64,000 nt of DNA from Morinoia aosen (Eukaryota; Arthropoda; Malacostraca; Amphipoda; Talitridae), in assembly GCA_030386875.1 (NCBI GenBank), contig CM059575.1, forward strand, positions 46,840,859 through 46,904,858, in the 5' to 3' direction. Positions 26,595 through 51,107 of this stretch are shown here, in pieces. The notes beneath the pieces are model-generated. The model ran no database searches. It was not told the DNA's origin and saw only the letters and a list, made by a program, of their open reading frames with translations. The position numbers and the translations under genes were made by a program. Every line of letters starts with the position of its first letter. Position 1 is the stretch's first letter.

Positions 26595-26627
26595 CGTTTC
26601 GACCATTATCATTGGTCATTATCAACA
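26595..26627 (-). ncRNA. Degenerate hammerhead-ribozyme-like motif, left copy
   Basis: On the minus strand, TTGATAAT precedes a GACC/GGTC stem with a short loop and then GAAACGTT. Penelope-like elements are known to carry hammerhead ribozymes (core CUGAUGA, stem II, GAAA). Here the core differs at two positions, so cleavage activity is doubtful. The mirrored motif is in the right copy. Confidence 0.4.
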
Positions 26628-26706
26628 CTGAAAAGATAAAACAATAGTACAGTTAAATGATGATCTATTGCAACATTCTAAACAATATATGGTGATCGAT
26701 AAAAAA

Positions 26707-28347
26707 CTATGAATTAACAATTTGTAGAGGGTATGCTGACTGCATGTCGTTCAGACTAGGTTTTAATTTGGAGATGAACAAGGATTCTAGAATTTTGAGT
26801 TCAGTTGGATTAGAAGCTCTACCTAATATCTGGAAATCTGAAAGTCTGATAGGTAAATCACATTTTTCAGCGTGTGCACGTATGGCAGAATGAGATGGTG
26901 CGGATAACAGATTATTGGTTCGATGGCTCCGACCAGCATGCTCAGATACTCGAATACGTAGGTTACGCGAGGTAGAGCCCACATACTCTGATGCACCACA
27001 TCGTGCACAACTATGACTGTAAACAACAGAGCTGAGCATGCCCTTCGGAAGACCATCCTTAAATCTGAAAAAAGACCCAACAGAGAGCGGATTGACCTGG
27101 ATAAACTGAAATTCACACTGCATGAAATATTTCGACAGTAGCTGAGACAATTCTAATTTTAATTTTTCAGACTGAGCTCCAAAGTACAGTAACGGAACAT
27201 ATAACAGTTTTCTATTGACATATGGGATTGGTTCAACTTTGGTACGAACAGAGAAGAGGAACTTTTTTAAAAAATTGTCATATAGTCCTACCGGAAATCC
27301 GTTCTTTACAAAAAAATTCCTAAGGAAAACAAATTCATTGTGAAGATTAGGATATGAACTGCATATGCTATAAGCCCTGTGAAGAAGGGTTTTAATACTA
27401 TTGACTTTAAATTGGAAGCTGCAGAAACTAAAATAGCTAAGTCCTAAACCAGTAAAAGTGGGCTTGCGAAAGACAGAACAATCAAAGTTATTGCACTTCC
27501 TAGTCACCCTCACATCTAAAAATGGCAAACAGTTATCATTTTCTTCGTCCATTGTAAATTTAATATTTGGATGTTTCGAGTTCAGGTAATCTAAAAATAA
27601 GGTACAATGAGTCTGGTCTCTAAATAAAATGAAAGTGTCGTCAATGTAGCGTTTGTAAAAGGTTGGCTTAAAATGGCTAGGACAATCATCTATCCATGAT
27701 TTCTCATGGTGGCATATAAAAATATTAGCAAAGGTAGGTCCTAGTGGAAGGCCCATACCCAAACCATCCAGTTGTCTGTATAATTTTCTATTGAAAATGA
27801 AAAAACTATTTTGAACAGAAAGCTCAAGAAATTTTTTGAATAATTCGCGGGTTAGGCCCAAAACGGTAGTACAATCACTAAATAAACAATTCAAGCAAAT
27901 AGTTATTGTCTCCTGTAACGGAATGTTTGTAAACAGATTTTCTATGTCAAATGATGCCATATAAAGTGAATTTGCATTGGGGATGCGAGTAATTTGCTCA
28001 GCGAATGATTTAGAATTTTCGACCGTATATGTATTAGTGGTGAATGGCGAGAGAATAGGAACTAAAAACTTAGCTAATTTAAAACTTGGCGTTTGATACG
28101 CGGCAAAAATAGGTCTAAACGGGTAAGACACGTTAAAGTTAGGTTTATGAATTTTAGCCAAACCATAGAGAATACCGGGGGCTGATCCAGAGATAAAAAG
28201 ACGTTTATATAAATCTTCAGGAATCAAGCTAAGTTTCTTCAATTTACGTAAGAAGTTGTTAATTTTGTCTTCTATTCTAAGTGTATATACATGCATCTCC
28301 TCAGAAATCTCTTTAAATTTACTGGTATTTGAAATTATGCTAGTCAT
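26707..28347 (-). CDS. Penelope-like reverse transcriptase / GIY-YIG endonuclease (left copy)
   Basis: A 546-codon open frame for the polyprotein that copies and inserts the element. Visible motifs: YGLAKIHKP near residue 61 (typical of Penelope RTs), RT motif A ASFDIENLFTNIP with Asp ~134, motif B GLGMGLPLGPTFANIF ~195-210, the catalytic YIDD ~234-237 in YKRYIDDTFILF, and LPFLDVRVTR ~275. The C-terminal GIY-YIG nuclease starts at VVYSHSCARC ~442, has EYVGSTSRNLRIRVSEH ~455-471, and ends with the ELKILESLFISKLKPSLN helix. The RT core and nuclease motifs all look intact. The N-terminus is truncated: the frame runs upstream past this Met as DRDRYNDS to the head-to-head junction, so the Met may not be a natural start. 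The stop is followed by the 3' UTR. Confidence 0.9.
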   Translation of the reverse strand: MTSIISNTSKFKEISEEMHVYTLRIEDKINNFLRKLKKLSLIPEDLYKRLFISGSAPGILYGLAKIHKPNFNVSYPFRPIFAAYQTPSFKLAKFLVPILSPFTTNTYTVENSKSFAEQITRIPNANSLYMASFDIENLFTNIPLQETITICLNCLFSDCTTVLGLTRELFKKFLELSVQNSFFIFNRKLYRQLDGLGMGLPLGPTFANIFICHHEKSWIDDCPSHFKPTFYKRYIDDTFILFRDQTHCTLFLDYLNSKHPNIKFTMDEENDNCLPFLDVRVTRKCNNFDCSVFRKPTFTGLGLSYFSFCSFQFKVNSIKTLLHRAYSICSSYPNLHNEFVFLRNFFVKNGFPVGLYDNFLKKFLFSVRTKVEPIPYVNRKLLYVPLLYFGAQSEKLKLELSQLLSKYFMQCEFQFIQVNPLSVGSFFRFKDGLPKGMLSSVVYSHSCARCGASEYVGSTSRNLRIRVSEHAGRSHRTNNLLSAPSHSAIRAHAEKCDLPIRLSDFQILGRASNPTELKILESLFISKLKPSLNDMQSAYPLQIVNS

Positions 28348-28370
28348 GCTGTCGTTGTACCTATCACGGT

Positions 28371-29819
28371 CCTGATAAGGGTAGAGGTGTAGTCATTGTA
28401 GACCCGTTTAGACCTATTTTTGCCGCGTATCAAACGCCAAGTTTTAAATTAGCTAAGTTTTTAGTTCCTATTCTCTCGCCATTCACCACTAATACATATA
28501 CGGTCGAAAATTCTAAATCATTCGCTGAGCAAATTACTCGCATCCCCAATGCAAATTCACTTTATATGGCATCATTTGACATAGAAAATCTGTTTACAAA
28601 CATTCCGTTACAGGAGACAATAACTATTTGCTTGAATTGTTTATTTAGTGATTGTACTACCGTTTTGGGCCTAACCCGCGAATTATTCAAAAAATTTCTT
28701 GAGCTTTCTGTTCAAAATAGTTTTTTCATTTTCAATAGAAAATTATACAGACAACTGGATGGTTTGGGTATGGGCCTTCCACTAGGACCTACCTTTGCTA
28801 ATATTTTTATATGCCACCATGAGAAATCATGGATAGATGATTGTCCTAGCCATTTTAAGCCAACCTTTTACAAACGCTACATTGACGACACTTTCATTTT
28901 ATTTAGAGACCAGACTCATTGTACCTTATTTTTAGATTACCTGAACTCGAAACATCCAAATATTAAATTTACAATGGACGAAGAAAATGATAACTGTTTG
29001 CCATTTTTAGATGTGAGGGTGACTAGGAAGTGCAATAACTTTGATTGTTCTGTCTTTCGCAAGCCCACTTTTACTGGTTTAGGACTTAGCTATTTTAGTT
29101 TCTGCAGCTTCCAATTTAAAGTCAATAGTATTAAAACCCTTCTTCACAGGGCTTATAGCATATGCAGTTCATATCCTAATCTTCACAATGAATTTGTTTT
29201 CCTTAGGAATTTTTTTGTAAAGAACGGATTTCCGGTAGGACTATATGACAATTTTTTAAAAAAGTTCCTCTTCTCCGTTCGTACCAAAGTTGAACCAATC
29301 CCATATGTCAATAGAAAACTGTTATATGTTCCGTTACTGTACTTTGGAGCTCAGTCTGAAAAATTAAAATTAGAATTGTCTCAGCTACTGTCGAAATATT
29401 TCATGCAGTGTGAATTTCAGTTTATCCAGGTCAATCCGCTCTCTGTTGGGTCTTTTTTCAGATTTAAGGATGGTCTTCCGAAGGGCATGCTCAGCTCTGT
29501 TGTTTACAGTCATAGTTGTGCACGATGTGGTGCATCAGAGTATGTGGGCTCTACCTCGCGTAACCTACGTATTCGAGTATCTGAGCATGCTGGTCGGAGC
29601 CATCGAACCAATAATCTGTTATCCGCACCATCTCATTCTGCCATACGTGCACACGCTGAAAAATGTGATTTACCTATCAGACTTTCAGATTTCCAGATAT
29701 TAGGTAGAGCTTCTAATCCAACTGAACTCAAAATTCTAGAATCCTTGTTCATCTCCAAATTAAAACCTAGTCTGAACGACATGCAGTCAGCATACCCTCT
29801 ACAAATTGTTAATTCATAG
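28371..29819 (+). CDS. Penelope-like RT / GIY-YIG endonuclease (right copy, shortened)
   Basis: The open frame starts at the head junction (the first Met is at 28566) and ends at 29819. From MASFDIENLF onward the 417 residues are identical to the left copy, including motif A, GMGLPLGPTFANIF, YIDD and the GIY-YIG domain with YVGST and RIRVSEH. The region before motif A lacks the segment with YGLAKIHKP, so this copy is unlikely to encode a working reverse transcriptase even though the frame is open. Absence of stop codons and identity with the left copy point to a very young insertion, recent gene conversion or a palindromic assembly error. Confidence 0.85.
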   Translation, partial: PDKGRGVVIVDPFRPIFAAYQTPSFKLAKFLVPILSPFTTNTYTVENSKSFAEQITRIPNANSLYMASFDIENLFTNIPLQETITICLNCLFSDCTTVLGLTRELFKKFLELSVQNSFFIFNRKLYRQLDGLGMGLPLGPTFANIFICHHEKSWIDDCPSHFKPTFYKRYIDDTFILFRDQTHCTLFLDYLNSKHPNIKFTMDEENDNCLPFLDVRVTRKCNNFDCSVFRKPTFTGLGLSYFSFCSFQFKVNSIKTLLHRAYSICSSYPNLHNEFVFLRNFFVKNGFPVGLYDNFLKKFLFSVRTKVEPIPYVNRKLLYVPLLYFGAQSEKLKLELSQLLSKYFMQCEFQFIQVNPLSVGSFFRFKDGLPKGMLSSVVYSHSCARCGASEYVGSTSRNLRIRVSEHAGRSHRTNNLLSAPSHSAIRAHAEKCDLPIRLSDFQILGRASNPTELKILESLFISKLKPSLNDMQSAYPLQIVNS

Positions 29820-29900
29820 TTTTTTATCGATCACCATATATTGTTTAGAATGTTGCAATAGATCATCATTTAACTGTACTATTGTTTTATCTTTTCAGTG

Positions 29901-29932
29901 TTGATAATGACCAATGATAATGGTCGAAACGT
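29901..29932 (+). ncRNA. Degenerate hammerhead-ribozyme-like motif, right copy
   Basis: TTGATAAT, then GACC, a short AT-rich loop, GGTC and GAAACGTT, about 80 nt after the RT stop codon. The arrangement matches a minimal Penelope hammerhead with a short stem II, but two core positions are non-consensus. Confidence 0.4.
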
Positions 29933-30038
29933 TCACTTTTATGAATTGTCTTTCTCTTATAAGAAATGGTTTTAAGAAGCGTGGCTTTAGTCTTCCTTTT
30001 TATAGTTAAACTTTCCAAAGATTGGAACCTTAACATTT

Positions 30039-30051
30039 TTAATAAAATATT
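30039..30051. repeat. Right copy of candidate 13-bp target-site duplication
   Basis: TTAATAAAATATT, a direct repeat of 26505-26517, about 28 bp outside the end of the right Penelope arm. Confidence 0.5.
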
Positions 30052-30859
30052 GTGCTGTTGAACCTAGTTCTTATATATCAGCGGAAAAATGAACCTGATG
30101 GGACGTTGACAATAATTGATTCATAAATTGATAGTCGTCTTAAAACTTATCAAACTTGCGGAGAAGTGCACAAAAAATGAAAGGAATTTAGCAATGAAAG
30201 TATTCCACTGAATGCTAAAAGTACAATCACTGAATCTAACTTACTTTCCTTTCCATTTACCGAGCTAAGATTGCAAATGAAAGATCTTTTTCGTTTGTCC
30301 GTTCGTCAATTAATAAAGTGATTACTGATTAGGTTTCGAAACCAATTCGCATTCCTTCGATAGATCTTTCGACTGATCAGCAATACTGAGATTAATTTTT
30401 AAAAATTGTTTGTATTATAACGATGTCTGAATTTCAAAATATCTTGCTATTGTTTAATGAGATGGGCTACACTTTTTACATGTATGAGTGAAGTCCTGAG
30501 TCAGAGATTTTGCTTATTTTTAAGGTGAAATACCAAAGCCTGGCAATGGGACTCATGCAAGTCATTCAATAAAGGTGCCAAACTTTGGGGCTGCTAATTT
30601 ATTTCTTTGCAACGGTGGCTGTCTCATGAGTTACGTGGTAACAATAAATCAAGCAATAGCTACCTGTTTTTTGGGGAACTCAGTGAATACCTAAACGAAA
30701 CGCTTGTACAAATTAGATCAGAGTGTATGAAAAGAAAACGAAGTAATGAACACTGAATTGACCAAAATAATTGCGACTACGTTTTTAGTGGTATATCTCA
30801 CGCGCATCAAAAATGATGCAGGAAAAAGGCAGCTAGAAAACTACACTGCTCTGTTTTAC
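30052..30859. other. Unremarkable intron DNA
   Basis: AT-rich, no supportable gene, tandem repeat or element seen. Confidence 0.5.
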
Positions 30860-31085
30860 TGAAGGTATTCCTTGCAGGCATGAGAAATGATGGAGTACTG
30901 CCACTAAAACTCATTCAGCAGTGAACACATTTGCTTCAGAAGACATAGAATCCATTTTATGGAAAGGCTGGGATTTGGAGAGTTATGGACCGTTCATCAA
31001 GATAATGATCTAAAGCACAATGCGAAAGCTACTCGCCATTCGTCCGGTCTGAAAATTGAAAACGATACGAGTGAAGTATAGAATT
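30860..31085 (+). mobile_element. Decayed Tc1-like transposase fragment
   Basis: One plus-strand frame reads FMERLGFGELWTVHQDND, then LKHNAKATRH. This matches the Tc1 transposase segment LPFMEEL..WVFQQDNDPKHTAKATREW around the second catalytic Asp. Just upstream, in another frame, GMRNDGVLPLKLI resembles the preceding strand (G...G.LPL..I). In-frame stops (30905-30907 upstream and TAG at 31079-31081) bound the open stretch. No inverted terminal repeats were found. It differs from the fragment at 23488-23760, so the two represent separate insertions. Confidence 0.7.
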
Positions 31086-34075
31086 TATGCAAGGGACGCT
31101 AGGTGCAATGAAAGGAAGAAATACGCTTAAAGTAGGATCGAATGGCCAATGCATGCACCAATGCAGAAGGATCACACTGGAACAGAGGTAGCGGGAATCA
31201 AACAGTGCCAGTCAACGTAGTGAAGAAATGGTTGATCGGTTTTTCATCATACCTTTCCCTCTACAGTTTTTTAATTTTCTCATCATGAAAAACTAGTCTA
31301 TTTATGTGGGCCATCGTATTAAACAATACTTAACAGCATGCCATTTGAAGAACTCAAGACTTTTGAGTTTTGTGGTTTTGAATTTTAATCAATCACACTT
31401 TGTGTACGTGGCGTACGAATTCATCAGATTCCTAAAAGCAGAAAAACGAATTTTCTTCGATGAAATTTGCATAAGTTTGTTCTGCAATGGCAATCAAATT
31501 TAAATCATTCGGTCTCGGGCTTAAATCTCTCCACCATCATGATCTGTTACATCCCAAAAAATTTAGATAGCAAGTGAACAGTTGTTTCTTACGCTAAGAT
31601 AACAGAAAATTTACCCGTTCATGACTCAATAGTGTTGACGTTATTGCTGAGGCTATAGATTTTACGAAGAATTCTGCCAGGTTCAGTGTTTGTTTCTAAC
31701 GGTGCGAATTAGCAATTGAAAATGGTCTGAATTTGCACACAGAGATGAAAAACGTACTCGAATTGTAATTGGTCTTTAGCGCAAATATTAATAGGAGATA
31801 GCTGTAATTAGACTCCGTATTTCTCAACGATTATTATTTTTCTCTCATACATCCACTGCGTTACACACAGTGTCCAAGCTTCCGGCAGCTCGATCTCCTA
31901 ACGTAGCGACGCCGACTGAGCTCTAAGTCTCACACGTCCAAATGAGAGAGGGAATATGGCCTCAAAAGGAGGCCAGAGCTTTGTGGCGAAGAAGGTCTCA
32001 CGAATTACAAAATTTTACTCTGGCTGCAAGGAACGTAGTATGAGTTTCATCTGGACTTATTTTTTTTGTAGATGCGATGGTTGACTGTTTGAACGCAGTA
32101 CTTTGCACAAACAGTGAACATGAAGTTGTTATTCAAACACTGTTGAGAAATGGTTACCATTTAGAAAAGAACACCGAAGCTGTGATGATATTCGTAATGT
32201 TCACTCTTGTTCTGTGATAAGCAGGCCTTTTTATAAACATTTCCTTGCGCAAAAACTTTAAATTGGGGTCAGAAAAGAGAACTAACAGACATGTAGCGAA
32301 GAAAAAGCGAATGAATTGAGGGGCACAATGGTCAAGCGAAAATTTTAATTCCAGTAATTCAATATATCTCCATTTAAAAAATAACACTGAATTTGTAGCC
32401 GACGTTGATGACATAAGTTTTGCATAACTTTAAATTAAATTTTAATCACAAATACGGCAGTCGTTGGTTCAAATTTTCCCTTTTTGGACCTAGATGCGAA
32501 GCGGTTAGCAGTTAATCCTCAAGTGTGCCATTAATGAAGGATGGGGGCTCAAATCTGGAGATGCAGGGAACCAGTCCCTTTGATTAACGAGATCTGCTCC
32601 GGGACTCACTTCTGAATGACATGTATGGCGCGGATGCAAGAATTACGAGTTTGAAAATTTTATTTCCGTGAAGAAAGTGAAGGTCAATTGAGGGGCGAAA
32701 TCAATTATCATGTAACATAATTTTGTTGCTTCAAAAGGCAGCAGACGAGTCGCACTTTACAAAACCCCAATCATTGCTCTACGTCCACTGATGCGCACAG
32801 TAGAAGCAAGTTTACCGTTAACAACAACGATGGCAAAGGCAAGTTCGCCATTTACAACTTCAACAACAAGCCACCAATTATGCCTGCGATAAATCAGAAA
32901 ATTCATCGATGTTAGTCATGAGCCATAAAGATAACAACGTAGAAGACTGAACGTGTATTCCGTGGCCCGATTATTCAATCTCCATATTCTGCCTAACCCT
33001 TATTATTTCAGTTGAAATATTTCAGTTGAAATGGGGGTACAGCGCCTGAATCAAATATGAATTACCGATCTCCTGCGAAAATAAAGTTACGTCAATGGCT
33101 ATCTACTGACCCAAGATCCTCATTATAAAAATCCAATAGCATGAGAACTTGGCAACCGAGATCCTCTCTATGGATTTTTCCTTTCCTGAACGTGATGAAA
33201 TAGTTCCCGTTGGTAATGGACGCATCCACCATGCTCATATTGTCCTTGTTTGTTTCCCTGTGCATGAGTGAATTTTTGATGACATGAAATTCCACCGCTC
33301 AATCTGAGGATTTCAATTTATCCAAAAATTTATGGGACGTGGCAAATAACCTCTTTCATCGGATCGGTATTAGAAGACAGCGGCAACGACTGCTGCATCA
33401 GGCGGATAAACGTAAAAATGAAGTAGTTGCAAAACCTATTCATTTACCACAATTACCACGCAAGGTGAGACCTGTACTTCACGCGAACAGAGATCAACTA
33501 AATCATTGAAATTTGTGTTTCACCTCCCAATGAAGTTAAAACATGAAATGAAGTTAACGAAAAAGCTGGTTTCTTGGCTTCAGCTTTCCTTTCTTACTTG
33601 TACACGAAAATTTTTTTGAAAAAATCATATCAAACTACGGAAGAAACAAATTATAGAGAAAAGCTTTCATTCTGTCACCATCGAAGATTTGCCGAATTAT
33701 TTATATGCAGCCAATTCAACAGCAGCAACAACAACGACCTTCACTGTTTGGAACTGAAAATAACGGCATAATTACAAAGACAATCTTATCGTACGGAACA
33801 CGAAACACAAATGTTCCAGGAGCATCTCGCGTGTGAGTTTTCGCTTGATGACGTCCATGATGTTCGAAGATTGAATAAGTGCTGCTACTTACAAAACTGG
33901 TTGTTTAGTAAATTTTATGCAGATAAAGATAGATTATTTCTAAAATGATCTGTAATAGAAATAAGTGTTTGGATAGTAATGAATAATGGGTAAATTAAAT
34001 TCATCTTTATTTAACTGACGTTATGCAAAGCAAATGAAATACTTGGCTGACATTTTTGCGACGGGTTCTGTGTTC
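31086..34075. other. Intron DNA without recognised features
   Basis: About 3 kb with only short chance frames (31306-31503, 32154-32414, 33092-33295, 33574-33771). No family, tandem array or element boundary was recognised. A slightly GC-richer patch around 31870-32000 has no long frame. Confidence 0.5.
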
Positions 34076-35034
34076 AATTTTGCTGTAAAGTACGTGTGCC
34101 ATGTCCCCAGATTTTGCTGTAAAGTACGAGTGCCCTGTTCCCAAATTTTGCTGTAAAGTACGAGTGCCCTGTCCCCAAATTTTGCTGTAAAGTACGAGTG
34201 CCATGTCCCCAAATTTTGCTGTAAAGTACGTGTGCCATGTCCCCAGATTTTGCTGTAAAGTACGAGTGCCCTGTTCCCAAATTTTGCTGTAAAGTACGAG
34301 TGCCCTGTCCCCAAATTTTGCTGTAAAGTACGAGTGCCATGTCCCCAAATTTTGCTGTAAAGTACGTGTGCCATGTCCCCAAATTTTGCTGTAAAGTACG
34401 AGTGCCCTGTCCCCAAATTTTGCTGTAAAGTACGAGTGCCCTGTCCCCATATTTTGCTGTAAAGTACGAGTGCCCTGTCCCCAAATTTTGCTGTGAAGTA
34501 CGAGTGCCAAGTCCCCAAATTTTGCTGTAAAGTACGAGTGCCCTGTCCCCAAATTTTGCTGTAAAGTACGAGTGCCCTGCCCCCAGATTTTGCTGTAAAG
34601 TACGAGTACCCTGTCCCCAAATTTTGCTGTAAAGTACGTGTGCCATGTCCCCAAATTTTGCTGTAAAGTACGAGTGCCCTGTCCCCATATTTTGCTGTAA
34701 AGTACGAGTGCCCTGTCCCCAAATTTTGCTGTAAAGTACGAGTGCCATGTCCCCAAATTTTGCTGTAAAGTACGAGTGCCCTGTCCCCAAATTTTGCTGT
34801 AAAGTACGAGAGCCCTGCCCCCAGATTTTGCTGTAAAGTACGAGTGCCCTGTCCCCAAATTTTGTTGTAAGGTACGAGTGCCCTGTCCCCAAATTTTGCT
34901 GTAAAGTATGAGTGCCATGTCCCCAAATTTTGCTGTAAAGTACGAGTGTCCTGTCCCCAAATTTTGCTGTAAAGTACGAGTGTCCTGTCCCCAGATTTTG
35001 CTGTAAAGTACGAGTACCACGACCCCAAATTTTG
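34076..35034. repeat. 34-bp satellite array, ~28 copies
   Basis: The unit begins AATTTTGCTGTAAAGTACG and ends near CCCTGTCCCC. Spacing is exactly 34 bp (ATTTTGCTG at 34077 and 34111). Copies differ mainly at GTGCCCTGT versus GTGCCATGT, CGAGTG versus CGTGTG, and CCCCAA versus CCCCAG. The first eight follow an ABCDABCD order, a 136-bp higher-order repeat. As 34 is one more than a multiple of three and the minus strand lacks stops in the unit, three long minus-strand frames (324-369 codons) cross the array. They encode the same 34-residue repeat shifted, and I do not regard them as genes. Confidence 0.97.
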
Positions 35035-35774
35035 ATCGACGATGTCAAATAGCGAGTTAATAAAATAGTAATTAAACCACAATTGAATTAGACATGATTT
35101 TGATACGTAGTTGGGACTACGGGAAACCATACCCGCACTAAAAGCGCTCGTGTGTTGCCATGAGCTGAGACATCACGGGTAGAGAAATATGGGTAAATCC
35201 CGAGGCCTTACTTTATGGTCATTATTGTCTATTTCGAATCCATAGTTTTTATTTTACACGGAGAAACGTGGCTAAAAGTGAAATTATGAACACTTCTTGG
35301 ATTTCTGTTATTTCATTGTAAGCTTCCATGGGATATTGGGTGGAACTCAGAGAACATCTGTATAATAATTTTCATTTTTATGGGCAGAATTTTTTCATAC
35401 GCGTCACAAAATAAATTTCAACCGGTAGTAAACACAAATATTACACATCTGTATTTTATGCTTCGTTCGCTCTGACGGCAGCCAAAATTCGAAATTTTCG
35501 AAATGCCTGAAATCAGGTAAAATTAACGTTTACCTAGTAGGTATTTTAGGCATTTTACATCATTGCTTTTTTTGAATAAATTTTAAGTCGAGTCATTTGC
35601 TTAACAACAAGAAAGCCACGTTTGAAATCGGGCAAGATTGCGTTTAACTCATGGGCTGAAATGGTTTATTGATAAATACATCGGCCTGCATGCTCATGCA
35701 TGCTATATGTATCGTTTTATGGAGAATACGGAAGGATATGTGAAGGGTTCAATTCTAAATGGAATGTTAACCGA
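35035..35774. other. Spacer between the 34-bp and 22-bp satellites
   Basis: About 740 bp of AT-rich single-copy-looking sequence. No gene or element was recognised. The two satellites do not share a unit. Confidence 0.5.
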
Positions 35775-38700
35775 CGCATGACTGTGTACCGTATACCGCA
35801 TGACTGTGTACCGTATACCGCATGAATATGTACCGTATACCGCACGACTGTGTACCGTATACCGCATGACTGTGTACCGTATACCGCATAACTGTGTACC
35901 GTATACCGCACGACTGTGTACCGTATGCCGCATGACTGTGTACCGTATACCGCACGACTGTGTACCGTATACCGCATGACTGTGTACCGTATACCGCATG
36001 GATGTGTACCGTATACCGCACGGCTGTGTACCGTATACCGCACGACTATGTACCGTATACCACACGACTGTGTACCGTATACCGCACGACCGTGTACCGT
36101 ATACCGCACGACTGTGTACCGTATACCGCACGGCTGTGTACCGTATACCGCACGACTATGTACCGTATACCGCATGACTGTGTACCGTATACCGCACAAA
36201 TATATACCGTATAAGCACGACTCTGTACCGTATACCGTACGGCTGTGTACCGTATACCGCACGGCTGTGTACCGTATACCGCACGGCTGTGTACCGTATA
36301 CCGCACGACTATGTACCGTATACCGCATGACTGTGTACCGTATACCGCACGAATATATACCGTATGAGCACGACTCTGTACCGTATACCGTACGGCTGTG
36401 TACCGTATACCGCACGGCTGTGTACCGTATACCGTACGGCTGTGTACCGTATACCGCACAGCTGTGTACCGTATACCGCATGACTGTGTACCGTATACCG
36501 CACGGCTGTGTACCGTATACCGAACGACCGTGTACCGTATACCGCACGGCTGTGTACCGTATACCGCATGACTGTGTACCGTATACCGCACGGCTGTGTA
36601 CTGTATACCGCACGACCGTGAACCGTATACCGCACGACTGTGTACCGTATACCGCACGGCTGTGTACCGTATACCGCACGAACGTGTACCGTATACCGCA
36701 CGACTGTGTACCGTATACCGCACGGCTGTGTACCGTATACCGCACAACCGTGTACCGTATACCGCACGACTGTGTACCGTATACCGCACGACTGTGTACC
36801 GTATACCGCACGACTGTGTACCGTATACCGCATGACTGTGTACCGTATAGCGCACGGCTGTGTACCGTATACCGCACGGCTGTGAACCGTATACCGCACG
36901 ACCGTGTACCGTATACCGCACGACTGTGTACCGTATACCGCACGGCTGTGTACCGTATACCGCACAACCGTGTACCGTATACCGCACGGCTGTGTACCGT
37001 ATACCGCACGACTGTGTACCGTATACCGCACGACTGTGAACCGTATACCGCACGACCGTGTACCGTATACCGCACGGTTGTGTACCGTATACCGCACGAC
37101 TGTGTACCGTATACCGCACGACTGTGTACCGTATACCGCATGACTGTGTACCGTATACCGCACGACTCTGTACCGTATACCGCACGACTGTGTACCGTAT
37201 ACCGCATGATTGTGTACCGTATACCGCATGGATGTGTACCGTATACCGCACGGCTGTGTACCGTATACCGCACGACTATGTACCGTATACCACACGACTG
37301 TGTACCGTATACCGCACGACCGTGTACCGTATACCGCACGACTGTGTACCGTATACCGCACGGCTGTGTACCGTATACCGCACGACTATGTACCGTATAC
37401 TGCATGACTGTGTACCGTATACCGCACAAATATAAACCGTATAAGCACGACTCTGTACCTTATACCGTACGGCTGTGTACCGTATACCGCACGGCTGTGT
37501 ACCGTATACCGCACGGCTGTGTACCGTATACCGCACGACTATGTACCGTATACCGCATGACTGTGTACCGTATACCGCACGAATATATACCGTATAAGCA
37601 CGACTCTGTACCGTATACCGTACGGCTGTGTACCGTATACCGCACGGCTGTGTACCGTATACCGTACGGCTGTGTACCGTATACCGCACAGCTGTGTACC
37701 GTATACCGCATGACTGTGTACCGTATACCGCACGGCTGTGTACCGTATACCGCACGACCGTGTACCGTATACCGCACGGCTGTGTACCGTATACCGCATG
37801 ACTGTGTACCGTATACCGCACGGCTGTGTACTGTATACCGCACGACCGTGAACCGTATACCGCACGACTGTGTACCGTATACCGCACGACTGTGTACCGT
37901 ATAGCGCACGGCTGTGTACCGTATACCGCACGACTGTGTACCGTATACCGCACGAACGTGTACCGTATACCGCACGACTGTGTACCGTATACCGCACGGC
38001 TGTGTACCCTATACCGCACAACCGTGTACCGTATACCGCACGGCTGTGTACCGTATACCGCACGACTGTGTACCGTATACCGCACGACTGTGTACCGTAT
38101 ACCGCATGACTGTGTACCGTATACCGCACGGCTGTGTACCGTATACCGCACGGCTGTGTACCGTATACCGCACGACCGTGTACCGTATACCGCACGACTG
38201 TGTACCGTATACCGCACGGCTGTGTACCGTATACCGCAAAACCGTGTACCGTATACCGCACGGCTGTCTACCGTATACCGCACGACTGTGTACCGTATAC
38301 CGCATGACTGTGAACCGTATACCGCACGACCGTGTACCGAATACCGCACGGTTGTGTACCGTATACCGCACGACTGTGTACCGTATACCGCACGACTGTG
38401 TACCGTATACCGCATGACTGCGTACCGTATACCGCACGGCTGTGTACCGTATACCGCACGGCTGTGTACCGTATACCGCACGACTATGTACCGTATACCA
38501 CACGACTGTGTACCGTATACCGCACGACCGTGTACCGTATACCGCACGACTGTGTACCGTATACCGCACGGCTGTGTACCGTATACCGCACGACTATGTA
38601 CCGTATACCGCATGACTGTGTACCGTATACCGCACGAATATGTACCGTATACCGCACGACTCTGTACCGTATACCGCACGGCTGTGTACCGTATACCGCA

Positions 38701-41700
38701 TGACTGTGTACCGTATACCGCACGGCTGTGTACCGTATACCGCACGACCGTGTACCGTATACCGCACGGCTGTGTACCGTATACCTCACGGCTGTGTACC
38801 GTATACCTCACGGCTCTGTACGGTATACCTCACGGCTGTGTACCGTATACCGCATGACTGTGTACCGTATACCGCACGAATATGTACCGTATACCGCACT
38901 ACCGTTTACCGTATACATCACGGCTGTGTACCGTATACCTCACGGCTGTGTACCGTATACCTCACGGCTGTGTACCGTATACCTCACGGCTGTGTACCGT
39001 ATACCGCACGACTGTGTACCGTATACCGCACGACCGTGTACCGTATACCGCACGACTGTGTACCGTATACCGCATGACTGTGTACCGTATACCGCACGGC
39101 TGTGTACTGTATACCGCACGACCGTGTACCGTATACCGCACGGCTGTGTACCGTATACCGCATGACTGTGTACCGTATACCGCACGGCTGTGTACTGTAT
39201 ACCGCACGACCGTGTACCGTATACCGCACGACTGTGTACCGTATACCGCACGACGGTGTACCGTATAGCGCACGGCTGTGTACGGTATACCGCACGACTG
39301 TGTACCGTATACCGCACGACTATGTACCGTATACCGCACGACTGTGTACCGTATACCGCACGGCTGTGTACCGTATACCGCACAACCGTGTACCGTATAC
39401 CGCACGGCTGTGTACCGTATACCGCACGACTGTGTACCGTATACCGCACGACTGTGTACCGTATACCGCATGACTGTGTACCGTATACCGCACGGCTGTG
39501 TACCGTATACCGCACGGCTGTGTACCGTATACCGCACGACCGTGTACCGTATACCGCACGACTGTGTACCGTATACCGCACGGCTGTGCACCGTATACCG
39601 CAAAACCGTGTACCGTATACCGCACGGCTGTGTACCGTATACCGCACGACTGTGTACCGTATACCGCACGACTGAGTGCCGTATACCGCACGACCGTGTA
39701 CCGTATACCGCACGGCTGTGTACCGTATACCGCACGACTGTGTACCGTATACCGCACGACTGTGTACCGTATACCGCACGACCGTGTACCGTATACCGCA
39801 CGACTGTGTACCGTATACCGCATGACTGTGTACCGTATACCGCACGGCTGTGTACCGTATACCGCACGACCGTGTACCGTATACCGAACGGCTGTGTACC
39901 GTATACCGCATGACTGTGTACCGTATACCGCACGGCTGTGTACTGTATACCGCACGACCGTGTACCGTATACCGCACGACTGTGTACCGTATACCGCACG
40001 ACGGTGTACCGTATAGCGCACGGCTGTGTACGGTATACCGCACGACTGTGTACCGTATACCGCACGACTATGTACCGTATACCGCACGACTGTGTACCGT
40101 ATACCGCATGACTGTGTACCGTATACCGCACGGCTGTGTACCGTATACCGCACGACCGTGTACCGTATACCGCACGGCTGTGTACCGTATACCGCATGAC
40201 TGTGTACCGTATACCGCACGGCTGTGTACTGTATACCGCACGACCGTGTACCGTATACCGCACGACTGTGTACCGTATACCGCACGACGGTGTACCGTAT
40301 AGCGCACGGCTGTGTACGGTATACCGCACGACTGTGTACCGTATACCGCACGACTATGTACCGTATACCGCACGACTGTGTACCGTATACCGCACGGCTG
40401 TGTACCGTATACCGCACAACCGTGTACCGTATACCGCACGGCTGTGTACCGTATACCGCACGACTGTGTACCGTATACCGCACGACTGTGTACCGTATAC
40501 CGCATGACTGTGTACCGTATACCGCACGGCTGTGTACCGTATACCGCACGGCTGTGTACCGTATACCGCACGACCGTGTACCGTATACCGCACGACTGTG
40601 TACCGTATACCGCACGGCTGTGCACCGTATACCGCAAAACCGTGTACCGTATACCGCACGGCTGTGTACCGTATACCGCACGACTGTGTACCGTATACCG
40701 CACGACTGAGTGCCGTATACCGCACGACCGTGTACCGTATACCGCACGGCTGTGTACCGTATACCGCACGACTGTGTACCGTATACCGCACGACTGTGTA
40801 CCGTATACCGCATGACTGTGTACCGTATACCGCACGGCTGTGTACCGTATACCGCACGACTGTGTACCGTATACCGCACGGCTGAGTACCGTATACCGCA
40901 CGAATATGTACCGTATACCACACGACTGTGTACCGTATACCGCACGACTGTGTACCGTATACCGCATGACTGCGTACCGTATACCGCACGGCTGTGTACC
41001 GTATACCGCACGGCTGTGTACCGTATACCGCACGACTATGTACCGTATACCACACGACTGTGTACCGTATACCGCACGACTATGTTTCGTATACCACACG
41101 ACTGTGTACCGTATACCGCACGACTGTGTACCGTATACCGCATGACTGCGTACCGTATACCGCACGGCTGTGTACCGTATACCGCACGGCTGTGTACCGT
41201 ATACCGCACGACTATGTACCGTATACCACACGACTGTGCACCGTATACCGCACGACCGTGTACCGTATACCGCACGACTGTGTACCGTATACCCCACGGC
41301 TGTGTACCGTATACCGCACGACTATGTACCGTATACCGCATGACTCTGTACCGTATACCACACGGCTGTGTACCGTATACCGCATGACTGTGTACCGTAT
41401 ACCGCACGGCTGTGTACCGTATACCGCACGACCGTGTACCGTATACCGCACGGCTGTGTACCGTATACCTCACGGCTGTGTACCGTATACCTCACGGCTC
41501 TGTACGGTATACCTCACGGCTGTGTACCGTATACCGCATGACTGTGTACCGTATACCGCACGAATATGTACCGTATATCGCACTACCGTTTACCGTATTC
41601 ATCACGGCTGTGTACCGTATACCTCACGGCTGTGTACCGTATACCTCACGGCTGTGTACCGTATACCTCACGGCTGTGTACCGTATACCGCACGACTGTG

Positions 41701-43555
41701 TACCGTATACCGCACGACCGTGTACCGTATACCGCACGACTGTGTACCGTATACCGTACGACTGTGTACCGTATACCGCACGACCGTGTACCGTAAACCG
41801 CACGACTGTGTACCGTATACCGCACGGCTGTGTACCGTATACCGCACGACTGTGTACCGTATACCGCATGACTGTGTACCGTATACCTCACGGCTGTGTA
41901 CCGTATACCACACGACCGTGTACCGTATACCGCACGGCTGTGTACCGTATACCGCACGACTATGTACCGCATACCACACGACTGTGTACCGTATACCGCA
42001 CGACCGTGTACCGTATACCTCACGGCTGTGTACCGTATACCGCACGACCGTGTACCGTATACCGCACGGCTGTGTACCGTATACCGCACGACTATGTACC
42101 GTATACCACACGACTGTGTACCGTATACCTCACGACCGTGTACCGTATACCTCACGGCTGTGTACCGTATACCGCACGACCGTGTACCGTATACCGCACG
42201 ACCGTGTACCGTATACCGCACGGCTGTGTACCGTATACCGCACGACTATGTACCGTATACCACACGACTGTGTACCGTATACCGCACGACCGTGTACCGT
42301 ATACCGCACGACCGTGTACCGTATACCGCACGACCGTGTACCGTATACCGCATGGCTGTGTACCTTATACCGCACGACTATGTACCGTATACCACACGAC
42401 CGTGTACCGTATACCGCACGACCGTGTACCGTATACCGCACGGCTGTGTACCGTATACCGCACGATTATGTACCGTATACCGCACGACCGTGTACCGTAC
42501 ACCACACGACCGTGTACCGTATACCACACGACCGTGTACCGTATACCGCATGACTGTGTACCGTATACCGCACGACTGTGTACCGTATACCGCACGACCG
42601 TGTACCGTATACCACACGACTGTGTACCGTATATCGCACGACTCTGTACCGTATACCGCACGACTGTGTACCGTATACCGCACGACCGTGTACCGTATAC
42701 CACACGACTGTGTACCGTATACCGCACGACTGTGTACCGTATACCGCACGACTGTGTACCGTATACCACTCGACCGTGTACCGTATACCGCTCGACCGTG
42801 TACCGTATACCTCACGGCTGTGTACCGTATACCGCACGACTATGTACCGTATACCACACGACTGTGTACCGTATACCGCACGACTGTGTACCGTATACCG
42901 CACGACTGTGTACCGTATACCGCACGACCGTGTACCGTATACCACACGACTGTGTACCGTATACCGCACGGCTGTGTACCGTATACCGCACGGCTGTGTA
43001 CCGTATACCTCACGACTGTGTACCGTATACCGCACGGCTGTGTACCGTATACCACACGGCTGTGTACCGTTTACCGCACGGCTGTGTACCGTATACCGCA
43101 CGGCTGTGTACCGTATACCGCACGGCTGTGTACCGTATACCGCACGGCTGTGTAGCGTATACCGCACGACCGTGTACCGTATACCGCACGGCTGTGAACC
43201 GTATACCACACGGCTGTGTACCGTATACCGCACGGCTGTGTACCGTATACCGCACGGCTGTGTACCGTATACCGCACGGCTGTGTACCGTATACCGCACG
43301 GCTGTGTAGCGTATACCGCACGACCGTGTACCGTATACCACACGGCTGTGTACCGTATACCACACGGCTGAGTACCGTATACCGCACGGCTGTGTACCGT
43401 ATACCGCACGGCTGTGTACCGTATACCGCACGGCTGTGTACCGTATACCGCACGACTGTGTACCGTATACCGCACGACCGTGTATCGTATACCGCACGAC
43501 TGTGTACCGTATACCGCACGACCGTGTACCGTATACCGCACGACCGTGTACCGTA
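35775..43555. repeat. 22-bp satellite array, ~354 copies (7.8 kb), open in six frames
   Basis: The unit starts CGCACGACTGTG and ends with GTATAC. It carries three CpGs and alternates purine and pyrimidine at 18 of 22 steps. Common variants are CGCACGGCTG, CGCATGACTG, CGCACGACCG, CTCACGGCTG and CACACGACTG, plus a rare 21-bp form with AATATA and ATAAGCACG (near 36195, 36348, 37425 and 37578). The consensus has no stop codon in any frame of either strand, so frames of up to ~715 codons run through it (plus: VYRIPHDCVPYTARLC-type; minus: RYTVHSRAVYGTQSC-type). Higher-order duplication is visible. It lies within the host intron, which is transcribed from the minus strand. No start context, domain or splice evidence supports a protein. 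Confidence 0.97.
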
Positions 43556-46429
43556 AGACTGAGTTGATTCAAACGATTGATCATCAAAATACCTAGTAAA
43601 ATTCCCACGATTGAAGTGACACATTGATGTGATGTATTTAGAGTTCAAGTATAGGTGTCAAATTACTTCACTCTGACGCAGGAAATTGGGTTGTGCTAAT
43701 TTTTTTAGTAGTAAATTTTTTTTCCATAAATTAAGAGCAGCCTGAAATGCGTAAATCGTTGACTCTGGAGGAATGCTTCCTCGCAGAGCAGAAGACAGTC
43801 CAGATCTCTGGAAAATACTCGATAACTTGGCAGAAGCAATCTAGAATGCTCAATTATTTATCAACGCCAAGAGCTTAAAGAAAATTAGTGTAAGAGGGGA
43901 AAATAGCTCCATGACGCGAGCCAACATTCATTTCTAAACTGCATTTCTTTGACGAGTGGCAGTGTTTTTTTTTTTGAGTTTTTTATGCTCGCAAAGTAAA
44001 AATATCAAGAATCGCATTTGAAATTGCTGCTATCATGAACGCTTGCCTACAGGGCAGAAGTAAGGTAAATACCGACTTGATATTAGCGCAGCCCCTCACT
44101 GCAGTAGCGCAACTGTTGAAGTTTTGCTCATACCTTTTTTGAGTGGATGCACCAAGCCGACCGATTTCAACATTGCCGCACAAAATATGTATAATGCGAA
44201 CGGATTTGTCTTAACCGAACCTGCAGCGAGTAAGATTATAATGTATTTTCGACGCATAGCAGCTTCTGTGGTAAACTAAGAGTTAAATTTTATCGAGGAA
44301 AATAAGTGGACTCGTTTTTGAAATGAAGATAGTTCAAAGAGCTTGTGTGTGCTCAGAAACATATTCCAACAAAATAAATCTTTAGGCGTATACGGTTTAT
44401 TTCCGTCACTAAAAAATCGGTTGATTGATAGATATGTTGTGGCGATTAAACTACTGTACGTATGCAAAACTGAAATGAAGTACAATGCCGCTTCGTAAAA
44501 TTCATCATGCCTCAGCCAACTTTTATTGGGAACGAAGGAATGTACCAAATTCCAGCTCTCATGTTTCGATAGACTAGTGGATATTTAGCACTGGTATACA
44601 TTCATTGTTTTGTCCGTTAAGTATCGAAGCGCAACTTGTTACACACGTCTTTACATCTCACCTGATTTAGATGCTACACTCCTCGTCCCATCTCGAAAGT
44701 TTCAAGATATATTTCGTCTATGCAAACAGCTCGGTTCTCATTGGAATGAATCTCACTCAGATTTTTTCTCCCTCAGTCAGTTTCTCTCGTCCTTTGAAGC
44801 TACGTCGTTTGTTAGAGTATCAAGCCTCCAGTTCGCTCCAGTTCCCAACTGGCCCCCAGAGAAGCAACTAAAAACAGATTTTGAAAGTCTAAATAGACTG
44901 TGCCTTCAAAATTCTGCAGGATTAAAAATTTACTACTCATTTTATTTGAATGAGATTCTGATTAAATTATTTACTCAGCAATTTGTGAGTCTGGACATCC
45001 TTGAATTTTAAAAACGTAATTTAGGAAGACAGTCTGCCTATTGCAGCGGTGTTTCATTCGACTGACTCCTGTAGACACTCTCCAAGACTTAAAATACATG
45101 GCGGAAAAATATCTCGCGGTGAAGTTAAAAAAGATAAATGTGTAAACATTATGAAGTTTAGCCTGGCATTCAACAGATCTTCTATAAAACCTTTGAAACC
45201 GCGTTTCAGTAAAAAATCTTATTAAACTGCTTAGGCAGATCGAACGTAGTGAAGGGTAGTTTATTCTAACAAACGAACCAAAAACTTGGCTTCAAGGTAA
45301 TAATAATTTATACCTTCTAAAACACCGACGTTTGGCATGCTTGGGAAAGTTGTTCATGTGTGAGTAATCTAAAAGTAGCATTTTAACGTACTATCTCCCA
45401 ATTGTAAAGAGTGTTTCTAAATTGCATAGTTTGATTTGAAATTTCTAATTCATGGCCATCTTTCCATTTTACCTTACAAATCGTAATGGACTTTGTCAAA
45501 AAACAACAACAATGAACTGATGAGATGCTCTCGTAAAAAATCAGATCAAAGAAAATCAGAGAACTTAAGGAAAAATATTATATTTGTACTCCTTTTTTAG
45601 TGCGGGGGTCTTACATTCGAAAGTTGAGTAATTTTATCGACGTCAAGCAGCTAAAAGCTGTTCTAATAAAATTAATTGTACCTGCACTTGAGATAAAAAT
45701 TCGTTTCAATATGGTTCTAACAATGGCTTAAAATGTTATAGATATATTTTTTAGGTATGCCACTTTTAAAGGTGAAATGTCGTCTGTTCCAGACACTCGG
45801 AGCAATATTTAAGGCTGGCGTGCTCATTTCTAAGCCGAGCGTGAAACCGGCATACGTCCAGTTTTACGGTCAGCAGACTTATGGAAAGTGTTTAGGATAT
45901 TAGGTTTTGCCAGTGCCTCAAGGAAGAGGCAATCTTACTAGTGCTGATGCAAATTCCATATCGCTTCTCTAGACTGATCGCTGCTCTCCTCGTACCTTGA
46001 AGTTTACAATATGAGTGACAAAAATTGATGAAGTTCAACGCAGTAATTTGTTTAGAAATACATCGTTTGAGCTATGACTACTTTTAGCACTAATTGAACA
46101 TTGAGGAGACGTTTATCATAAGACGAAAAATGTTTCTTCAGTCAGAGTAGGCGTGCAGGAGGAGTTCATACACGATGAAGCAAATGAGCTAAAATCACAG
46201 CAAAAATCCTTACGTGCAACTTACGAGATGATTTTCGAGTTCATTTATAACGATCAGCGTGAAGCTAAGGGTAACATTCGAGCTTTTTTAGGGTTAGGGA
46301 GACTTCGGTTAGGGAGAATTCAACTAATAATCTAATTTAACTATTTTAATCAATGAATAGGTTCTACTAGGAATTTAAAAACGAATAAAGTGCTAGGCAT
46401 TGTAATCATTTTTAATACAGATTTCAAAA
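43556..46429. other. Intron DNA between the satellite and the older Penelope pair
   Basis: No supportable gene. A 133-codon plus-strand frame at 44610-45011 has no recognisable domain. TTAGGG occurs twice in a row at 46288-46299 and once more ~10 bp later, too few for a telomeric tract. Confidence 0.5.
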
Positions 46430-46925
46430 ATTGTTAATTTATAATCATTACATAGCTTTAGTTTTATAAAACGTTTAGAAGTTCCGATCCATCTTCAGTT
46501 AGTAGCTTTCAAATATTGAAAATAAAGAAAAAACACTTATTTTATATAATACATGAACACAAGAAAATTTACGAGTAAATTTGCAAAGGATATGAACTAT
46601 TTGTGTTATTAAGAACCGGTTTTTCTTTGAAAATATAGAGATTCTAGAATGCGTAAATCTAAATCATTAGATGCTGTGCGTATAATAGAAAAATTGTCCT
46701 TTGCTATAGACAGTAGTCACAATACTGCTCGCTGTGAAGGCGGATAGATGAATGAGGCGGTTGGGTCAGAGGTCTTCCGCTACGGTAGCCAACTCCACGG
46801 TGTTGGGCAATCCTAATATAGAATGGCAAAGTCGTCATGTCGACATAGCCAGATGTTCATTGTTCACAACTAAACTTATACACAATGGATGCCCGCTTCC
46901 GTTTGGGAATCGTGTACTTGTAGCT
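46430..46925 (-). mobile_element. Old Penelope-like 3' fragment, left arm of an inverted pair
   Basis: The reverse complement aligns over most of its length with 47636-48000: shared CTGCTCGCTGTG, GAATGAGGCGGTTGG, AATCCTAATATAGAATG, AACTAAACTTATACACAATG and TATAAAACGTTT. It is the GIY-YIG end plus 3' UTR of a Penelope-like element, degenerate, with its 3' end at the left. The arms are visibly diverged, so this pair is much older than the one at 26516-30038. Confidence 0.7.
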
Positions 46926-47635
46926 AAAAAAACTAATTGTAAGTGAATTAACAGACACACTGCATAGTTTTACGCGAGAAAATGACGTTTGAAATGAAGT
47001 TCCAGACCTTGCGGAATTTTATTAGTATCTCCGAAGTATGGAAAAATGCAATACAGACGTTGCAGTGGTTCTATAAACGCATAGGTAACTTAGTATTTCT
47101 TATCCAGGAATTTTTTAATATGACTATTGAAAGTAGAAAAACAACACCCATTTTTTTCGAAGACGATTTTGTAGGAAAGAAAACTCAACATGTAGATCGA
47201 CGTGATTAGAAGAAATATTGAATGCACGACTCAATCCTTTTTGTGTGGTATTAATTTTGAATCTATAGTTACACAAACTAAAAAGCTCAAATCCAAACCA
47301 ATGAACGTAGCTTTCGGAAAGACAGATGAATTGAACGTAGGGCCATTTTCAGTAATAATTTTTGAGTACAAAAAGATAAACTATTATTTTTCCCAATTTC
47401 AACGGTGAATTTTGTAGACGAGTACTTAAAATTCAAATAACCTTTGAACAAGGGTGCATAACAAAGATGCTTAAACAAAAGAAACGGATTTTCGATATAT
47501 CTGCGAAAGAATTCAGGCTTAAAATCTATGGAACGATTTTCGCGAGATCTGTAAATTCTTTTTAAACGTTATTTTCCAACCGTAAAACTATGTATTGCGT
47601 CTAATAATTCACTGGAAGTTGGCTCTTTTTCGTTA
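46926..47635. other. Spacer between the arms of the older Penelope pair
   Basis: About 700 bp not matched between the arms. Short frames on both strands (46982-47209, 47202-47408, 47287-47478) show no recognisable RT motif, so I cannot say whether it is element interior or host DNA. Confidence 0.4.
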
Positions 47636-48000
47636 CTATAGGACGTGATTCCTAAGCGGATGCAGCCATCCATTGTGTATAAGTTTAGTTGTGTGCAGTG
47701 TACTTCTGGCTATGTTGCCCTGACGACTTTGCATTCTATATTAGGATTGACCATCACAGTCAAGTCAGGTACCAAAGCGAAAAACCTCTGATCCAACCGC
47801 CTCATTCATACGCTTACACAGCGAGCAGTGTTGTGGCTATATAGCAGAAGACAATTTTCATTTTACGATTATACTTCTTCCATTTTTTACGACTGATTTT
47901 TTCTGTATTTTCAATCTGTCAGACTGTTGACTGAAGGTGAAGCAGGCCTCCGAAACGTTTTATATGAATGACACTATGGACTTACTTTAAATTCATATTT
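47636..48000 (+). mobile_element. Old Penelope-like 3' fragment, right arm of an inverted pair
   Basis: The plus strand reads IVYKFSCVQCTSGYVALTTL, matching the start of a Penelope GIY-YIG nuclease (VVYSHSCARCGASEYVGSTS in the young pair), then after a frame change PPHSYAYTASS (compare APSHSAIRAHA). The 3' UTR has CTGAAGG, a short stem and CCGAAACGTTTTATATGA. The fragment is non-functional and 5'-truncated. It mirrors 46430-46925 across a ~700-bp spacer with 3' ends outward. Confidence 0.8.
47931..47957 (+). ncRNA. Hammerhead-like motif in the older Penelope fragment
   Basis: CTGA, an AGG...CCT stem, then CCGAAACG, at the position expected in a Penelope 3' UTR. The usual CUGAUGA core is CTGAAGG here, so it is at best a decayed ribozyme. 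A corresponding degenerate stretch is in the left arm near 46475. Confidence 0.35.
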
Positions 48001-51000
48001 TGGGAAATATTCATTAAATATGATTTCAATACATGACGCTATCTTCATTTTTGAATTCTTAATGATCATTCGTCTTAAGAAAAGTAACTTCCCTTGGATC
48101 TTTCAAAACCGTAGGTAGTAAAAGCATATTTTTTGATCGCACATTGAAGTGACAAAAAAAGATATAACATTTTTCAGCAGTATCTAGATAATGGAAAATA
48201 TAAGAGAAAAACCAATTCAGGTTGCGACTCAATCAGACCCATTGAAGCTCAACATAACATGGACCATAATTGCTTGTGAACACAAGTTACCCTTCGCGCA
48301 CGAACAAAAAAAGTTTAAAAGAAATAGGAAGAGAAGACAAAGATGAGATAGAAAAGAAGTTACAAAAACTGATACAAGTAAAGTGAGTATGAAAAATAGA
48401 AGCCTTGAAGGCCCCTCTATAGCTAAAGTAACCTACCAGTATCTCCCATGAGGGTGCCAGTCCCCACAGCACAGGAGAGACAGGCCCAACAGATCTACAC
48501 CTAGAAATCGAAGTGGCTCGGGGTGAATGATCAAGCTCGTCTAAGTTTTTCGCCGTAGCTTTTATAATTTTTACCGTCCAGAAACATGGTAGCTGCACTG
48601 GATGGCTAAAATCACACATTTTGAGTTGAAAATATAAAATTGGAATGTAAAAGATAAACGCAATCGCTTATTGTGATTAAAATTTGAAGTTTTTAGAACC
48701 AACACTTCGAAGGAACTTCTTAGCACGTAAAGTACAGACGAATAATCAGAAGCCGCACCAAAAGAGTGTTTGTGCATGTTTGTTCGATCAATTCATCATC
48801 ACACAGAAAAATGGTTGTCAAGTGAGGTAATATATTTCAAATTTTCATAAGTGGTGAGCTGATTAACAAAAATCCCCTTATAGAGTTTTCACCTTGAAAC
48901 TTGCATTCGCGCACTAAGTTTCTTTGTTGAACGACAAAAAATAACTCTTAATTTTTCGAGACAAACTTGTATTGCGCTTCAAATTACTTTAAGTTTTAGA
49001 AGTGACGGAAAAACGTTTGCAGCATATAACACACCCGGGTGACGATCACATTTACAGGAGCGGAGATCACAGCACCAGAGGCGTATGAAGAGTGCTGTAC
49101 AAATAAGAGGCAGTCCAGCGAGGCCACAAAAGGACGACACACAAGCTGCTCTCACGATGAAAAGAAACAAAAGAGACGGGACCTCATTTACCAAAGACTG
49201 TGTGTCCAAAGTGTGGTCCAAAGACCACAGGACAGGTTTCCATTTCATGCTGATTAATTTGCAGTGAATAGCTGTATCTTAGCTGATTGAAAATAATATT
49301 TTCACTGTGGATTTGTGAACAATGATGATTAAATGTAGTACACCTCAGCCACCTAAATATTTTCCCTAAATTAAAAAATCAAAGTCCGGTCATGGTTTTG
49401 GTATCAATAAATCTACTCTAGAGCGCCAAACGGTCCACAGCTCATTCACGTCACAGGGGCGACGAATACTACATGTTTTCGCCTACATGCTGCATTGTAT
49501 TACATGCTGCTTCTGACCACCCTGAACGTGCATTCGTTACTTATACCCTGCCTCTATTCAGATCTTAAAACCCTATGTTTTGCGGATAAATCTAGCTGTT
49601 TCCTCTACATCCCTTCAGCGAGCAAGGGCTTCTTGTCACCCCATCGAGATCTTCGACTTGCTCACATTGGATTGTTTTTAGAGCAACAATGTGAAGATGT
49701 GAGGGCACTGGGATGCTTCTTTTTATGACGCTCTCCGTTAGAGCTGAACATAATATCACTTCTTGCTTAGAATCATTTCATAGAAAACACAATTTCTTTT
49801 ACGGACCGAAAGCCAGTTTTTCTAGCTGATTCTGTAGGAGAGGGACCCGGAGGTTTCTTGTTCAAAGCATAAATGATTATCCTGGTTTATTGCAGATCTA
49901 GGTTTAATTGCATTGAAAACGTAATGGAACCGACTGTGATGAGTGCAAGACGTGTTTCAAGTCGTCAAAAAGTGCGAGTTAGGGGAAAAAGGAAGACTGA
50001 AGAAGAGTACTGAGATTAGATTTATTCACTTAGCTCTGATAGTTCACTGAAGTGTAGTGTGTTGGACAGCGGAGTGAGACACACTATCGTACAGTTCTCA
50101 ATTCTGAAGGGCTTCCTACTAATGATGGTGCAAATAGAAGTGCAACAAGTCGGTGAAATGATTTCGTTGACTTTGAAAATGAGTAGTTTTTAAAAAAACT
50201 GTATGTTTTCTTCTGACTGAAAGAAAGAGCTTCATACCGAATGGGTATGATATTTGTAGTTAACCTCTTCTCGGTAAGAAAATAGTGCTGTTTTTCAAAT
50301 TTCATTTTAAAATATTCGATCTTCGTTTTCAATGGGAAACACCCACCGGAAGTGTTTTAGACCTTAATTTAAATACTTTGATGATGATTTTGAATAAATA
50401 ATTTATGTAAAAATACAGTTAGAGGTGGGTCAACATTTCAGTTCTGTTTCAATTAACGCTTCCGTGTCGTCTATTTCCGAATCTCTATTCGAAATCAGGG
50501 CTCGGCTTGACTGTCATGTGCCTCTTCTGAAAGTTCTTGTAAGAATACGTGTGCAGTCACATTCTTTACTGTATGAAATGACATATTCGTTCTACAAAGT
50601 CTTATCAACATTGGCGAGTAAAGGCCGTCGACGTTATTTCATTGTTCAACGATTGGTCCCACTTACAAAAAATTTTAATAACCATATGATTAATTGGAGC
50701 ATGTTTCAAAAGCACGAATAATCAACGTCGAGCTAAATATATCAGCAAGCATGCATTCAAGTTTGGGGCCGAAAACCTGCTCAAGAGCGTGACGCGCTTA
50801 GAAGGTATTCATTTTGCATCAGTGAATGTTCACTATTGCGTTTTGGACTTAGAAAATCATAAATATGGTTGAAGTTCATAGATAGAAGCCGAACGAAAAT
50901 GTTGTGGCTCATACAAAAAATAATTCTCGTTAGTTGACTATTAACTGTTCCTCAGATATCTCCAAATACTCAGCATGGCTCATATCTTGGTTGTCGTATG

Positions 51001-51107
51001 GCTGCTCGCAACATCTTAACGCCTTTAAACAACAACTAAATTCAGCATCACAAGCGACTTTATTTAAGAGTGAGGATATTTAGTGCGTAATCTATATCAT
51101 AGAATAC
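48001..51107. other. Right end of intron 5, no recognised features
   Basis: About 3.1 kb adjoining the cytoplasmic exon at 51108. Short frames (48287-48619 minus, 49039-49257 plus, 50425-50721 plus) have no recognisable family. No tandem repeat or element was seen. Confidence 0.5.

Follow-up and report, generated by a model that had tools for sequence, protein, structure and literature searches.

An array in which a 22-bp unit can be read without a stop codon in every frame of both strands raises the question of whether such openness reflects translation of repeat peptides or merely the letters of which the unit is built. The array was found in a 64-kb window, the whole stretch of 64,000 nucleotides analyzed here (Table 1). 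Tandem Repeats Finder run on the window gave head-to-tail copies with a period of 22 and 90% matches, and the original prediction of about 354 copies at these coordinates proved exact. Wraparound alignment resolved the array into 354 units of 72 types with gaps in 5 units. The commonest types were present in 70, 64, 37, and 30 copies, variants were most frequent at unit positions 2-10, and 345 places on the plus strand of the window lay within three mismatches of the consensus. Note that all of these frequencies are those of one assembled allele.

The consensus unit lacks stop codons in any frame of either strand and, as 22 is not a multiple of three, all three frames of a strand are open, each being a rotation of a single 22-residue peptide repeat, as had been predicted. 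The repeat peptides encoded in principle are of the RTTVYRIPHDCVPYTARLCTVY type and the VYGTQSCGIRYTVVRYTVHSRA type. The further claim that the array is open in all six readings is true of the consensus but not of the real copies, which contain 63 stop triplets on the plus strand and 51 on the minus strand (114 in total, affecting 108 of the 354 units), so that each of the six frames is interrupted. The longest stop-free stretches were 722, 427, and 527 codons in the plus frames and 571, 517, and 417 codons in the minus frames (of 2593 codons per frame), the first agreeing with the predicted maximum of about 715. The observed/expected CpG ratio was 1.78 in the array versus 0.95 in its flanks.

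Table 1 Coordinates of the array, of other tandem arrays and of the modelled host gene. Positions are those of the window unless another location is named; a slash marks an exon-intron boundary.
Feature	Location	Strand	Unit and copies	Remarks
Minisatellite array	35775..43555	unit written on +, antisense to host gene	22 bp, CGCACGACTGTGTACCGTATAC, 353.9 copies	
Neighbouring minisatellite	34076..35034		34 bp, 28.2 copies	three minus frames open, all 319 codons
Minisatellite	5543-5670		28 bp x 4.6	stop-free on both strands
Minisatellite	25239-25778		40 bp x 13.5	with stops
Host exon, Ig-like end	62835..63999	-		ends ...RVECWASNSVGASSQPCVFLISKV/; donor G/GTGAGT; Ig-like by eye
Host exon, first half of FN3 domain	60504..60616	-		fn3 match across joined exons
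Host exon, second half of FN3 domain	57198..57408	-		alone 23.1 bits (fn3 cut-off 25)
Host exon, transmembrane segment	53209..53370	-		hydropathy mean 3.4 over 21 residues; splice sites
Modelled intron holding the array	18976..53208	-		34,233 bp; donor AAAG/GTAAGT, acceptor TTGTCAG/TG, phase 1 to 1
Last coding exon, cytoplasmic tail	18059..18975	-		open frame to ...RRCNKKGK, stop TAG
Array L034	contig C3, 20.46 Mb		23 bp	consensus stop-free
Array L035	contig C3, 22.31 Mb		23 bp	consensus stop-free
Array L038	L038:6365-9133		22 bp x 126.1	consensus stop-free
Array L040	L040:2642-4275		23 bp x 71.2	consensus stop-free
Array L052	L052:3092-6470		21 bp x 160.9	consensus with stops
Array L055			43 bp x 24.6	consensus with stops

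The host-gene model consists of five minus-strand exons with GT donors and AG acceptors, which join in phase into one uninterrupted frame with 855 residues inside the window and a stop codon at its end; at its other end, the frame of the first exon continues beyond the window edge. When the two FN3 exons were joined by hand the product matched Pfam fn3 (9.6e-08, 32.6 bits against a cut-off of 25) and its best match in the PDB was NCAM2 (E 6.5e-9). Pfam gave no match for the long first exon, including the long stretch upstream of its Ig-like end, nor for the last coding exon, and no Ig family match was returned. The best PDB match of the first exon had an E value of 0.27, and a scan of the window plus 20 kb for the motif D[AS]G.Y.C gave no additional Ig exon. 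The modelled host is a gene for an FN3 membrane receptor-like protein, perhaps one resembling Sidestep. The Sidestep label is an assumption based on the Ig-FN3 junction and the domain order, and neither the Pfam nor the PDB searches name that protein. Sidestep is described as having five Ig domains, an FN3 domain, a transmembrane segment, and a short cytoplasmic domain (PMC9743010). The order of FN3 domain, transmembrane segment, and tail is alike in the two, whereas the modelled tail of the host is about 300 residues and that of Sidestep is short.

Location of the array within an intron of a receptor gene, another element of the original prediction, is thus backed by the splice model together with the FN3 and transmembrane exons. 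The array would occupy 22.7% of the modelled intron, which separates the transmembrane exon from the last coding exon but may hold a further exon, and the pre-mRNA of the modelled gene would carry the array as its minus strand. Elsewhere in the window, 26707-29819 contains two reverse-transcriptase frames that meet head to head (minus strand 26710-28392 and plus strand 28344-29816), both of which match RVT_1 and which, from their type of sequence, we take to be Penelope-like.

Is the openness of the unit more than its composition predicts? Shuffling the letters of the unit gave sequences stop-free on both strands in 9.4% of cases, whereas shuffles preserving dinucleotides did so in about 25% (24.6-25.6%). 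Random 22-mers at 55% G+C were stop-free in 17.6% of cases; with G+C lowered to 37%, similar to the flanks, the value was just 3.0%, which counts against a reading based only on composition. The unit is stop-free owing to its letters and neighbour frequencies, and there is support for the caveat attached to the original prediction, namely that the composition of the unit might be enough to explain the open frames.

Selection for openness should make stop-making mutations rare. The consensus allows 66 single-base changes, of which 18 create a stop codon, and 14 of these 18 were found among the array units (122 occurrences) compared with 29 of the 48 other changes (312 occurrences). For transversions the stop-making class was represented by 12 of 16 types (49 occurrences) and the remainder by 12 of 28 types (48 occurrences), and both possible stop-making transitions were frequent, with 43 and 30 occurrences. 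No depletion of stop-making substitutions was found among the array units, and selection against stops was therefore rejected. Unusually long frames were likewise rejected: when the gap-free units were joined, the longest frame was 716 codons, and a frame at least as long arose in 57.7% of shuffles when columns were permuted and in 31.7% when unit order was permuted (300 shuffles each). Each of the 67 types without gaps was then assigned to the closest type commoner than itself, a heuristic rather than a tree, which gave 74 mutation events spread evenly over the unit positions (chi-square p 0.64). Positions 11-22 (12 of 22 positions), the half with fewer variants, held 35 of the 74 events (p 0.24), and thus showed no significant depletion that would indicate constraint. 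Protein-coding tandem repeats are expected to have a unit length that is a multiple of three with one kept frame and to avoid stops; the array has neither property.

Other arrays of the genome were surveyed in twelve 10-kb stretches (120 kb) at chosen coordinates, two of them on the contig of the window, taking in arrays of at least 190 bp with periods of 10-70 bp. Four arrays of at least 1 kb were found, and two of the four, with units of 22 and 23 bp, have stop-free units and are as open as the window array or more so. In one of them, L040, four of the six frames are open end to end for 544 codons. Given that half of the sampled long arrays are stop-free, an open array need not be a coding one, and stop-free arrays of 22-23 bp units are not rare in this genome. 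All four consensus units of the 22-23 bp arrays longer than 1 kb that were examined (the window array, L038, L040, and L034) are stop-free, with dinucleotide-shuffle stop-free rates of 0.246, 0.524, 0.206, and 0.085, respectively. The window array was chosen for its openness and L034 for likeness to the window unit, which leaves L038 and L040 as the independent pair (0.524 x 0.206 = 0.11). Arrays of 22-23 bp units are perhaps stop-free more often than composition predicts. At 7.8 kb, the window array is the longest of the arrays examined; the 120-kb sample contains arrays of 21-23 bp units that are 1.6-3.4 kb long. In the 40 kb of sequence next to the window (L014-L017), no array reached 190 bp. 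A 105-bp piece of the neighbouring 34-bp minisatellite had 13 matches in the genome, every one of them within that minisatellite.

The unit was then sought in the entire 1.99-Gb assembly of 29 contigs. With at most one mismatch there were 244 matches, all on the plus strand, and the window alone contains 244, the assignment to one locus resting here on the equality of the two counts. With at most three mismatches there were 349 matches genome-wide versus 345 in the window, and a reversed control pattern gave 4. A genome-wide satellite was rejected because the unit occupies a single locus in the assembly, and the label of satellite used in the original prediction is not supported. Satellite DNA is marked by extensive arrays at numerous or heterochromatic sites; none were found in the assembly, although blocks absent from it would escape such a search. 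Four sub-sequences of the unit had no match in a literature text search, Rfam gave 0 matches at the gathering threshold, and a tRNA search yielded nothing of use. As a separate observation on the assembly, contig C27 has several long COX1 matches without internal stops at 55-72 Mb, whereas the mitochondrial-type copies have 8 TGA codons; the C27 matches look bacterial, and the assembly perhaps includes cobiont contigs. The mitochondrial COX1 is open when translated with the invertebrate code and, taken together with the type of gene, would point to an arthropod.

A BLAST search of the genome with 88 bases of the array gave at least 114 matches, of which 108 fall within the array itself and 6 lie on contig C3, the latter at two places with 76-78% identity. 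These are the two C3 arrays of Table 1, which lie 1.8 Mb apart and are each followed by a related array of 48-51 bp units. A 13-bp core, GTGTACCGTAYAC, is common to the window unit and both 23-bp C3 arrays. In the window this core is a near-dyad, GTGTAC-C-GTATAC, whereas most copies in the C3 arrays form a perfect dyad centered on a single base, GTGTAC-C-GTACAC. A tandem pair of perfect dyads was found 38 times in the genome, in every case at one of the two C3 places (control, 7), and the window version in tandem occurs 254 times, of which 252 are in the window and 2 on C3. A core shared with the C3 arrays is unexpected for a purely private array and may be due to common descent or to chance.

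The array also carries signs of its own growth. There is an exact internal copy of 670 bp at a lag of 1034, with further exact copies of 221 bp at lags of 748 and 286 and of 215-217 bp at lags of 1364, 2398, and 2684; at a lag of 1230, three 220-bp stretches are 99-100% identical. Such long exact repeats indicate duplication of multi-unit blocks within the array, as unequal exchange would give. Minisatellites are defined as having units of 10 to about 100 bp (PMC3152781), and slippage, unequal crossover, and conversion have been proposed for copy-number change of VNTRs (PMC8096271). The array has a head-to-tail unit in the 10-100 bp range, a local position, and internal signs of slippage or unequal exchange. 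It is like animal intronic minisatellites and VNTRs (PMC3152781; human, PMC8096271) in unit size, head-to-tail order, single locus, imperfect copies, block duplications, and (modelled) intron location. We consider it very probable that the array is an ordinary single-locus, G+C-rich intronic minisatellite that is stop-free by composition, grew by slippage or unequal exchange, and is non-coding. Replication slippage plus unequal exchange would have amplified a short seed lying within a large intron of the FN3 receptor gene, and further copies would have come later, when blocks of several units were duplicated within the array. Homogenisation would hold the units about 90% alike, and the array would be spliced out with its intron with no protein being made.

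The original prediction raised frame-independent production of repeat peptides, in which ribosomes would read through the array in whichever frame, on the pre-mRNA or on an antisense transcript, like repeat-associated non-AUG translation. The six-frame openness of the consensus, the open stretches of 417-722 codons, and a modelled intronic location like that of the C9orf72 repeat are consistent with such translation. The GGGGCC expansion of C9orf72 resembles the array in being intronic and in having many copies and several open frames, but differs in that the array unit is 22 bp, stops are present in almost a third of the units (108/354), and there is no consistent folding excess. Folding of four 132-nt RNA pieces (two places, both strands) gave z values of -2.08, -1.35, 0.09, and 0.14; two pieces were modestly better than shuffles and two no better, so that across the four pieces no consistent excess was seen, the best z being -2.08. 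Together with the 114 stops, the undepleted stop-making changes, open lengths like those of shuffled arrays, and the equal openness of two of the four sampled long arrays, these data argue against the proposed role, to which we give almost no credence.

Somewhat better, although still very improbable, is that the array regulates the receptor gene or its splicing in cis through many copies of a protein-binding site (for example, the near-dyad). The sharing of the core with the two C3 arrays, whose version is for the most part a perfect dyad, and the raised CpG ratio are in keeping with this, and there are precedents: in C. elegans the intronic minisatellite CeRep25B has been linked with alternative splicing (PMC4039745), and in human such minisatellites have been linked with enhancers and differential splicing (PMC8096271). 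CeRep25B is like the array in its short near-palindromic unit and mostly intronic location, but forms clusters along chromosomes III and II (PMC4039745), whereas the array unit is at one locus. Against a binding site is the lack of significant event depletion at positions 11-22. A composite proposal, less probable again, is that the array and the two C3 arrays belong to one small family, dispersed in the genome, whose common dyad core, GTGTAC-C-GTRYAC, is bound by a nuclear protein, such that the 354 intron sites would serve as a titrating or splicing platform and exported intron RNA would be readable in all frames. Least probable of all is a chromosomal satellite with large heterochromatic blocks elsewhere, of which the window array is one euchromatic outlier. 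The array is long and homogeneous, as a satellite would be, and satellite blocks can go missing from assemblies, but no second locus of the unit was found in this one.

Neither translation nor a regulatory function is needed to account for an ordinary intronic minisatellite of this kind. The locus carries a caution: short G+C-rich units are often stop-free by composition, and six-frame openness alone is no evidence of coding.
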